Assembly: GCF_000959445.1 (NCBI RefSeq) | Contig: NZ_CP009631.1 | Coordinates: forward strand, 3,100,001-3,164,000 | Reading direction: 5' to 3' | DNA length: 64,000 bases | Source: Burkholderia vietnamiensis LMG 10929 | Lineage (GTDB): Bacteria; Pseudomonadota; Gammaproteobacteria; Burkholderiales; Burkholderiaceae | Shown here: in pieces, positions 26,509 to 60,227 of the stretch | How the letters are laid out: every line of letters starts with the position of its first letter | Position numbering within the stretch: position 1 is the stretch's first letter | Translations under genes and position numbers: made by a program | The notes under the pieces: model-generated | Database searches by the model: none | What the model was told of the DNA's origin: nothing | The model's input: the letters and a program-made list of their open reading frames with translations, nothing else

Positions 26509-27681
26509 TCAGAACAGATTCAGCTGCGTATCGTCGCGCGGCTTCGCGCGGCTCGCCGCCGCCAGCTGCGCGCTCACGCGCGCGGGCGCCGCAGCGCGAA
26601 ACCGCGACATGTCGAGAACGCCGTTCCCGCGCTCATTCAGCCCGAGCCGCTTGACGGCCTGGCGGAAGCGCTGACGCAACAGATCGGCCCAGATACCCTC
26701 GCCCTTCATCCGCTTCGAGAAATCCGAGTCGTACTCCTTCCCGCCGCGCATGTCGCGCACGCGATTCATCACGCGCTCGGCGCGGTCCGGGAAATGCGCG
26801 GCCAGCCAGTTCTTGAACAACGGCGCGACTTCCCACGGCAGCCGCAGCACAATGTAGCTCGCATGTGTCGCGCCGGCATCCGCACAGGCCTCGAGGACGC
26901 GTTCCATGTCGGGCTCGGTGACGAACGGAATCATCGGTGCAATGCTGACGCCCACCGGCACCCCGGCGTCGCGCAACGCGCGAATCGTGCGCAGGCGGCG
27001 CGCCGGCGTCGCCGCCCGCGGCTCGAGCGTGCGCGCGAGATCGGCGTCGAGCGTCGTGATGGTGACTGCGGCCATGACCTGACCGCGCTCGGCCATTGGC
27101 CCGAGCAGATCGAGATCGCGCTCGATCAGCGACGACTTCGTGATCGCGGCAAACGGCAGCCCGTGATCGTGCATCACCTCGATCACGCTGCGCGTGATGC
27201 GCAGATCGCGTTCGACCGGCTGATACGCATCGGTGTTGACGCCGAGCGCGATCGGCTCGGGCACAAAACGCTTGCGCGCGATCTCGCGCTCGAGCAATTC
27301 GGCGGCATTGACCTTCGCGTAGATGCGGCTCTCGAAATCGAGACCGGGCGACAGGCCGAGATAGCTATGCGTGGGCCGCGCGAAGCAGTAGATGCAGCCG
27401 TGCTCGCAGCCGCGATACGGATTGAGCGACACGCTGAACGGAATGTCCGGCGACTGATTGCGCGTGAGGATGCTCTTGGCCCGCTCCTCGAACACCTGCG
27501 TGCGCAACGGCGCGGGGAGATCGGCATCGTCCGCTTCGTGCGTCCAGCCATCGTCCACCGCCTCGCGCAGCGCCGTCTCGTACCGCCCTTGCAGGTTGTC
27601 GACCGCGCCGCGCCCCTTGCGGGGCACGGGCGGCGCGATCGGAAATTCGTTGTCGGATCGACCGTCCATGCGCTCACCCAT
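26509..27681 (-). CDS. PA0069-family radical SAM protein (SplB-like)
   Basis: 390 residues from the ATG at 27681; the ATG at 27669 is an alternative. The [4Fe-4S] triad is CEHGCIYC (C92, C96, C99), after SVSLNPYRG. The following LGLSPGLDFESRIYAK and the barrel (VTITTLDADLARTLEPRAAT) match the PA0069/Rv2578c group, distant relatives of spore photoproduct lyase. The substrate is unknown. A perfect inverted repeat holding an SOS-box-like 20-mer lies immediately upstream, suggesting damage-inducible expression. Convergent with the TM2 gene. Confidence 0.88.
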   Translation of the reverse strand: MGERMDGRSDNEFPIAPPVPRKGRGAVDNLQGRYETALREAVDDGWTHEADDADLPAPLRTQVFEERAKSILTRNQSPDIPFSVSLNPYRGCEHGCIYCFARPTHSYLGLSPGLDFESRIYAKVNAAELLEREIARKRFVPEPIALGVNTDAYQPVERDLRITRSVIEVMHDHGLPFAAITKSSLIERDLDLLGPMAERGQVMAAVTITTLDADLARTLEPRAATPARRLRTIRALRDAGVPVGVSIAPMIPFVTEPDMERVLEACADAGATHASYIVLRLPWEVAPLFKNWLAAHFPDRAERVMNRVRDMRGGKEYDSDFSKRMKGEGIWADLLRQRFRQAVKRLGLNERGNGVLDMSRFRAAAPARVSAQLAAASRAKPRDDTQLNLF

Positions 27682-27686
27682 TCGCC

Positions 27687-27724
27687 TTCACCCAATACTG
27701 TACATTTATACAGTATTGGGTGAA
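27687..27724 (-). promoter_or_regulatory. LexA-type SOS operator candidate within a 16-bp perfect inverted repeat
   Basis: Arms TTCACCCAATACTGTA and TACAGTATTGGGTGAA flank a six-base spacer. The core, tactgtacatttatacagta (27696-27715), fits the enterobacterial LexA pattern TACTG-N10-CAGTA exactly. The right half ends six bases before the radical SAM start codon. The AT-rich core (TATAAA on the minus strand) could contain its -10 element. Confidence 0.7.
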
Positions 27725-27774
27725 GCATGCCAAGGAGGAGCCGAACGGAACCGACTACGCCGGCGCGGCCGCGG

Positions 27775-28263
27775 TCATTCGCCGACCGGAATCGTCATCG
27801 TCTCCTTGATCTCCTCCATCACGACATAGCTCTTCGACTGCACGGCGCCGGGCAGTTGCAGCAGGATGTCGCCGAGCAGCTTGCGATAGTCGGCCATCTC
27901 GCCGATGCGCGCCTTGATCAGGTAATCGAAGTCGCCCGACACGAGATGGCACTCGAGCACCTCGTCGATCTTCATCACTTCGCGGCGGAACTGCTCGAAC
28001 ATGTTGCCGCCCTTGTGGCCGAGCGTGATCTCGACGAACACCAGCAGCGCCGCGCCGAGCTGGCTCGGATCGACGCGCGCGTGATAACCGGTGATGACGC
28101 CGTCGCGCTCCATGCGCCGCACGCGCTCGATGCACGGCGTCACGGTCAGTCCGACCTGCTCCGCGAGGTCCTTCATCGCCATCCGGCCGTCGTTCTGGAG
28201 CAGTTTGAGGATGCGCCGGTCGAGCTTGTCGAGCGTGCGTACCGGCTGACGTTGCGTTCTCAT
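27775..28263 (-). CDS. dadR: Lrp/AsnC-family regulator, probable dad regulator
   Basis: 162 residues from the ATG at 28263. The N-terminal helix-turn-helix (LDKLDRRILKLLQNDGRMAM, then QVGLTVTPCIERVRRMERDG) is followed by the RAM effector domain (LGAALLVFVEITLGHKGGNM, HLVSGDFDYLIKARI). It is divergent from dadA with 145 bases between, the usual arrangement for DadR, which senses alanine. The gene name rests on that neighbourhood. The intergenic stretch is notably AT-rich, as Lrp sites tend to be. Confidence 0.85.
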   Translation of the reverse strand: MRTQRQPVRTLDKLDRRILKLLQNDGRMAMKDLAEQVGLTVTPCIERVRRMERDGVITGYHARVDPSQLGAALLVFVEITLGHKGGNMFEQFRREVMKIDEVLECHLVSGDFDYLIKARIGEMADYRKLLGDILLQLPGAVQSKSYVVMEEIKETMTIPVGE

Positions 28264-28408
28264 GTGTTTGTGCTGAAAATCTGAAAAATACAATAACAAA
28301 ACCTACATATTCAACAATACCATAGCGCAAACAACTAGATCAGCTAGAGGTTACACGGAGCCGCAGGTGCGCCCGGCCTCGACCTGATTCCTTCCATCTG
28401 GAGCAGCT

Positions 28409-52491: not shown

Positions 52492-52532
52492 AAAAAGGAA
52501 TGGCCGTTTGCGCTCGCGCGCAAACGGCCATT
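52492..52532 (-). terminator. strong terminator between the DUF2059 gene and serC
   Basis: Perfect 15-bp stem AATGGCCGTTTGCGC / GCGCAAACGGCCATT with TCGC loop, then CCTTTTTG on the minus strand. It is the longest perfect hairpin I noticed in the window. Confidence 0.85.
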
Positions 52533-59949: not shown

Positions 59950-60227
59950 GATGACCTACCTCCGTATTTGTCTGATCTTGCGATGAACACCCGTTCATCG
60001 CCGACAAATGGAAGTGTATGTAGGCAACTGCTTAAGAATAAGGCACGTTTCTGGAAGACATTCTTTCAGGATTACGGGTTAACCCTATAGTCCATTAGTG
60101 CGCCGGCACCCGCCCGGCAGCGCCGCATAAACGCGAGCCCCGCGAAGCGGCAGGCTTCGCGGGGCTCGGCAGACCGGCGCGCTGCGCGGCCATTGTGGCT
60201 ACGCGCGCTGCGATCGGGAAGCGGTGG

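Follow-up and report, generated by a model that had tools for sequence, protein, structure and literature searches.

In the late genes of phage T4 and in IS10, promoters lie within an RNA hairpin, and the hairpin silences read-through transcripts. In the SOS response, LexA control of splB was predicted in beta-Proteobacteria including Burkholderia (Sanchez-Alberola et al. 2012, PMC3323433), and splB (COG1533) has been counted among the SOS genes (PMC8565304). In the parts of the former report cited here, SOS control of this gene class in Burkholderia is already known by prediction (PMC3323433). Quasipalindrome template-switch mutation, as described in the cited part of the work on Escherichia coli, turns imperfect repeats into perfect ones in a single event, with the polymerase copying the nascent strand (PMC7202029). 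Template switching has also been reported to create and maintain RNA hairpins (PMC8794818), and homogenisation of arms together with inversion of the spacer has been reported in yeast coding DNA (PMC8604942), again according to the cited parts of these papers. By title and abstract, no paper in the open-licence literature was found to treat the combination described below, whether in work on LexA boxes and hairpins against read-through, on LexA and cruciforms, palindromes or template switching, or on template switching and concerted evolution at promoters or operators.

This combination is proposed for a predicted LexA operator in front of a radical SAM gene, in a 64-kb window (the whole stretch of DNA analysed) of the Burkholderia vietnamiensis LMG 10929 genome (Table 1).

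Table 1. Features of the predicted SOS operator and the neighbouring genes, in window positions
Feature	Position	Strand	Basis or remark
PA0069-family radical SAM gene	26509..27681	-	start 27681, or 27669, which is conserved in more loci
Complete palindrome (arms of 17 bp, spacer of 6 nt)	27686..27725	.	repeat search; arms 27686-27702 and 27709-27725, 100% complementary
Outer ten bases, gene-sense downstream arm (leader side)	27686..27695	.	covariation with 27716-27725
LexA box TACTGT-N8-ACAGTA (predicted)	27696..27715	.	core CTGT-N8-ACAG at 27698-27713
Putative -10 hexamer TATAAA, inside the LexA box	27705..27710	-	by eye; 17-nt spacer to -35
Outer ten bases, gene-sense upstream arm (promoter spacer side)	27716..27725	.	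covariation with 27686-27695
Putative -35 hexamer TTGGCA	27728..27733	-	by eye; CTTGGC invariant in 63/63 loci, A in 60/63
Lrp-family regulator gene, upstream, co-directional	27775..28278	-	possible source of read-through RNA

The radical SAM gene was assigned to the PA0069 family in a preliminary description, and this assignment was upheld by a match to NF033668 at 468.8 bits (cut-off 360). Its translation contains CEHGCIYC, which fits CxxxCxxC, the cluster motif of radical SAM enzymes, and matches PF04055 at 62.3 bits. The kinship to spore photoproduct lyase that had also been proposed found no support in a PDB search, which at an E value of 0.01 returned six chains, all of them pentatricopeptide-repeat proteins. 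According to the preliminary description, the Pseudomonas homologue PA0069 belongs to the LexA regulon; no paper naming PA0069 together with LexA was found in the open-licence literature. Among the 63 Burkholderia loci compared (two of which, L044 and the named B. ubonensis locus L073, show no difference in the lrp and radical SAM DNA that was compared and probably represent one genome), an ATG is present at the position of 27669 in 49 and at that of 27681 in 34, and 27669 may therefore be the real gene start.

On the strength of its sequence and context, the site before this gene is very probably a LexA operator-promoter. The count of the core motif was rejected as proof of LexA on its own: the bare CTGT-N8-ACAG occurs once in the window against 0.23 expected (at least once in 19 of 100 shuffles), and its 31 places in the 6.93-Mb genome (G000, with the window on contig 3) are no enrichment over the 29 of the reversed pattern. 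Recurrence of the complete 20-mer before SOS genes had been suggested as a check. The exact 20-mer does not recur, and since only two other sites lie within 3 mismatches of it, it was dropped as a regulon probe in favour of the core motif, which does stand before recA, lexA (two tandem boxes), a DinB/IMS-type polymerase gene, a UvrA-like gene and a FAN1-like gene. Moreover, a box scoring at least 11/12 lies upstream of the radical SAM gene in all 63 Burkholderia loci, while two scrambled control motifs reached this score in none of them, nor in any of the other locus sets. The corresponding numbers are 10/12 for the named Burkholderiaceae, 32/60 for the other loci of the family, many of the remaining ones having CACTGT-N8-ACAGGT with a score of 9, and 35/66 for more distant named loci (L119 was left out as too short). 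Orthologues throughout the Burkholderiales have the core motif upstream, as do two named loci of Pseudomonas (L141 and L146). The reading as a LexA operator is thus borne out by both context and conservation; the invariance of CTTGGC at the putative -35 element and the published prediction for splB also speak for it. The minus strand reads TTGGCA-N17-TATAAA, as called by eye, placing the putative -10 element within the box; the consensus promoter scan found nothing, because it demands a final T in this hexamer.

Some of the other places with the core motif have peculiarities of their own. The 16-mer CTGTAGGCGAAAACAG accounts for six of the 31 (L007, L015, L016 and three more), and is apparently part of a repeated element and not a LexA site. 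The LexA-type box at L059 (G000 contig 4, 1058130-1060149) precedes the UvrA-like gene, a very long open frame of 1994 aa in which UvrA-like segments are repeated, and the one at L010 (G000 contig 2, near 1126792) lies 7 bases before the FAN1-like nuclease gene.

The unusual part of the site is not the operator itself, it is the extension of the palindrome beyond the LexA box. The inverted repeat consists of 17 + 6 + 17 bp around an AT-rich centre, with the middle TACTGTACATTTATACAGTA. Its perfect pairing and six-base spacer had been recognized correctly, but the arms had been put at 16 bp, running eight bases past the box and ending six bases before the ATG at 27681; they measure 17 bp, run 10 bp past the 20-mer and 12 past CTGT...ACAG, and leave a gap of four bases (27682-27685). 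Eight perfect repeats with arms of at least 11 bp and loops of 3-8 are present in the window, the SOS palindrome being the longest, while five first-order Markov windows yielded one in total, with an arm of 11. As long arms are rare in 64 kb, which the bare core motif is not, the SOS palindrome is more than chance. Flanks were read at 28 of the 31 places with the core motif, the remaining three being further copies of the repeat CTGTAGGCGAAAACAG, and only the palindrome before the radical SAM gene extends 12 bp from the core. The outward run is 0-3 bp at the recA, lexA, polymerase, UvrA-like and FAN1-like boxes, and the second longest, at another of the places read, is 8 bp. No known RNA family reached its gathering score (the best was mir-101, 23.9 bits against 60), and a scan for intrinsic terminators found none in the window. 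Another inverted repeat, with perfectly matched arms of 15 bp and a loop of 5 nt, lies at 60134-60168.

Similar extensions recur in related genomes with other letters. In the other Burkholderia, the outer arms differ in sequence yet remain paired (43 distinct rows among the 63 loci), and palindromes of different letters are found in the Paraburkholderia-like loci L084, L208, L226 and L229 and in the single distant loci L096 and L125. Many Paraburkholderia-like loci have a bulged version. In four or more of the 63 Burkholderia loci, the palindrome has decayed in whole or in part. Caballeronia-like loci mostly have a bare box; the idea that the extension is missing there because another gene lies upstream was rejected, as lrp is present. 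Several of these loci, among L174-L194, have an outer stem of their own (e.g., TTGCGG/CCGCAA), in which a stretch preceding the box pairs with the bases directly in front of the start codon; the inner arms are unpaired.

Because the box alone folds, whole-segment fold z-scores were replaced by a test in which the box was held fixed and only the 30-nt flanks were shuffled. The distinct sequences with a box numbered 57 for the 63 Burkholderia loci, 58 for the 60 loci L173-L232 and 40 for the 67 loci L086-L152. The median flank z-score was -3.55 in Burkholderia (49/57 below -2) and -0.85 in the distant loci (8/40). It was -1.81 in L173-L232 (26/58) and -2.35 in L074-L085 (7/12), two groups that overlap (e.g., L183/L075, L184/L078 and L189/L077) and are not independent. 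At the control boxes, it was 0.20 for recA (2/24), -0.99 for lexA (6/26) and 0.12 for the uvrA-like gene (0/14), with boxes scoring below 17 omitted (6/30, 0/26 and 7/21, respectively). The extension hence belongs to the radical SAM gene within Burkholderia and some of the sister genera, and in distant loci it is no stronger than in the lexA control.

The two outer arms change in concert. Over the ten outer pairs in Burkholderia, 92.6% of the 430 cells are paired, compared with 73.7% in shuffles and at most 45.8% with slid partners; the covariation of the outer arms is 0.522, against 0.171 when shuffled and at most 0.142 when slid. All ten pairs include two-sided changes, and 22 further Watson-Crick pair types are found over them, or 28 when G-U is counted. 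The changes were placed on a tree built from the lrp and radical SAM DNA (approximately 730 bases) of the 129 loci with lrp upstream. Among the 63 Burkholderia loci, there were 82 outer-pair changes, of which 46 led from one Watson-Crick pair to another on one branch, a count that interspecies recombination or tree error can inflate; slid partners gave 1-5. With the original tree and 11 bootstrap trees, this two-sided count ranged over 46-50, and over 42-47 without four decayed rows.

Nevertheless, the letters themselves are not conserved. The arms show 7.0 and 6.2 changes per site, compared with 5.1 at 63 fourfold sites of lrp, and this near-neutral rate argues against stems kept by selection alone, which should change more slowly. 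A functional RNA hairpin is expected to show both covariation, which was found, and arms slower than neutral sites, which were not. A template-switched quasipalindrome is expected to have homogenised arms and more two-sided than one-sided changes, and this is what was observed. Among disjoint sister pairs of less than 3.5% divergence, the 11 with intact palindromes (one pair being identical throughout) show four two-sided and no one-sided differences, while the two with decayed palindromes, a label assigned in this analysis, show none and nine, respectively, a contrast that is small in numbers. The pattern matches the prediction for a self-correcting palindrome, in which the arms change in concert while intact and independently once broken. 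Candidate inversions of the spacer were seen in L165 and L085, and 2-4 point changes would also yield them.

Selection and copying were compared by simulation on the Burkholderia tree, with sequential fixation, one transition bias, one G-U credit and 12 runs for each setting. Observed pairing was 0.938, with 46 doubles, 22 further types, 82 pair changes and 6.60 changes per site. Under selection with point mutation, settings with a mean pairing of at least 0.89 gave at most 15 doubles and 11 further types. When arms were copied 20 times as often as they mutated, with no selection and the fourfold calibration, pairing came to 0.95, with 44 doubles, 21.2 types, 76.3 changes of pairs and 6.05 changes per site. 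With either of the two higher neutral calibrations, however, copying strong enough for the observed pairing overshoots (e.g., 63.7 and 83.2 doubles at copying 20), so that the fit, being near at one of three calibrations, depends on the calibration. Within this simple model and at one neutral calibration, selection acting on point mutations would not attain the observed rate.

Copying is not fast at every hairpin, as three others in the genus lack the concerted pattern (30 loci out of 62-63 matching genomes were used for each). The rplS terminator shows no change in its arms across 30 genomes. Across as many genomes, the dadA terminator has 20 G-U against 4 A-C cells and, over 11 pairs, three further types. 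No further types occur in the 15-bp hairpin at 52499-52532, which has a single mismatch, G-U in the minus-strand RNA, in 28 of 30 genomes; it is perfect in the LMG 10929 window and lies between two minus-strand genes, with a terminator-like form on that strand. As guesses, its length, its AT-rich centre, bound LexA or replication geometry might set the SOS palindrome apart.

Taken together, the explanation that we consider probable is an SOS operator of a known kind, situated inside a palindrome that is kept perfect by template switching. LexA would cover the -10 element and block RNA polymerase until DNA damage occurs. The extra ten bp on each side do not form part of the LexA sequence, and their letters are not conserved; instead, a change in one arm would be copied into the other. 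The copying would most likely be template switching by the polymerase when the hairpin forms during replication (quasipalindrome correction), and it may keep the palindrome perfect while its letters drift near-neutrally.

An alternative, which we regard as doubtful, is that selection on RNA pairing seals the gene against read-through. RNA entering from lrp would fold a hairpin of 17-20 bp before the start codon and hide it (in some Paraburkholderia, with a U-rich tail, it might terminate transcription), whereas RNA from the SOS promoter, beginning in the downstream arm and lacking the upstream one, would stay translatable. The presence of a co-directional lrp upstream in all 63 Burkholderia loci fits this, as does the folding of the segment at -49.1 kcal/mol (z -6.9) compared with -8.3 (z +1.3) for RNA from 27708, and among the SOS operators tested the pairing of the flanks is specific to the radical SAM gene. 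Yet the change rate and the two-sided count exceed what selection alone achieves in the model. One-sided changes lean towards G-U when the four decayed rows are left out (5 against 2-3 A-C), but over all rows there is no clear bias (7 against 6), unlike at the dadA terminator. In several loci, the start codon lies well past the hairpin (e.g., 47 nt after the box in L164 and L165), and the palindrome has decayed, at least in part, in some Burkholderia loci and is mostly absent from Caballeronia-like loci despite their lrp.

Interspecies recombination could have spread a few palindrome alleles, in which case many of the doubles on the tree would be a few old events. Along the tree, pair 16 indeed switches back and forth between A-T and G-C many times, as transfer would give. 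However, the further Watson-Crick types are counted independently of the tree and each needs an origin, which transfer leaves unexplained and selection-only runs do not supply in such numbers; we consider this account quite improbable. A DNA cruciform switch, in which supercoiling extrudes the palindrome and tunes the promoter, with selection acting on DNA pairing and not on letters, would suit arms that both overlap the promoter, an AT-rich centre and one-sided changes that over all rows show no strand (wobble) bias; it seems very improbable, since selection on pairing of any kind fails in the same simulation and the literature search found no natural precedent. Finally, the idea that an ordinary LexA box was lengthened by chance in a single genome, which the single occurrence of such arms among the places read might suggest, can be dismissed, as the extension recurs through Burkholderia and Paraburkholderia with other letters.

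Against the template-switching explanation stand the recA, lexA and uvrA-like boxes, most of which lack the extension, and long palindromes at the radical SAM gene in several lineages (L084, L096 and L125), which hint at a function. It is conceivable, though unlikely, that the cell uses a letter-indifferent hairpin around the SOS promoter, kept by template switching, so that only the damage-induced start makes the gene product and read-through from the upstream regulator gene makes none. If this joint reading were true, the insulator of a damage-response gene would owe its upkeep to a mutational process that is tied to fork stalling. If template switching is indeed responsible, compensatory covariation, which is often taken as proof of an RNA stem, can arise in a bacterial promoter when one DNA arm is copied onto the other, and this would bear on covariation-based RNA searches in bacteria. 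The 63 Burkholderia loci, including the decayed ones, would then offer natural replicates in which template switching could be measured at a single place in the chromosome, and they would raise the testable question of why it affects this operator when the SOS operators of recA, lexA and the uvrA-like gene are spared.

Compared with the described systems, the locus shares its anatomy with the T4 late genes and IS10, namely a promoter in a hairpin whose own transcript lacks one arm; silencing is established there, whereas here it is putative and the change rate misfits selection alone. With the LexA-regulated splB (COG1533) of alpha- and beta-Proteobacteria, it shares a predicted LexA box before a radical SAM gene named for spore photoproduct lyase in several Burkholderia (PMC3323433). 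This splB is very likely the same gene class, matched by name and family and not locus by locus, and relative to the cited part of that report, the extended palindrome and its co-changing arms are described only here. The quasipalindrome mutations of E. coli, in the part of that work cited, were observed in engineered reporters (PMC7202029), whereas here the process would be deduced from a comparison of species, at a natural SOS operator and over many events. Two-sided changes without intermediates, attributed to copying and not to selection on pairing, are common to our locus and to the cases reported in the cited parts of PMC8794818 and PMC8604942; those concern RNA genes and yeast coding DNA, while the present case concerns a bacterial promoter-operator.
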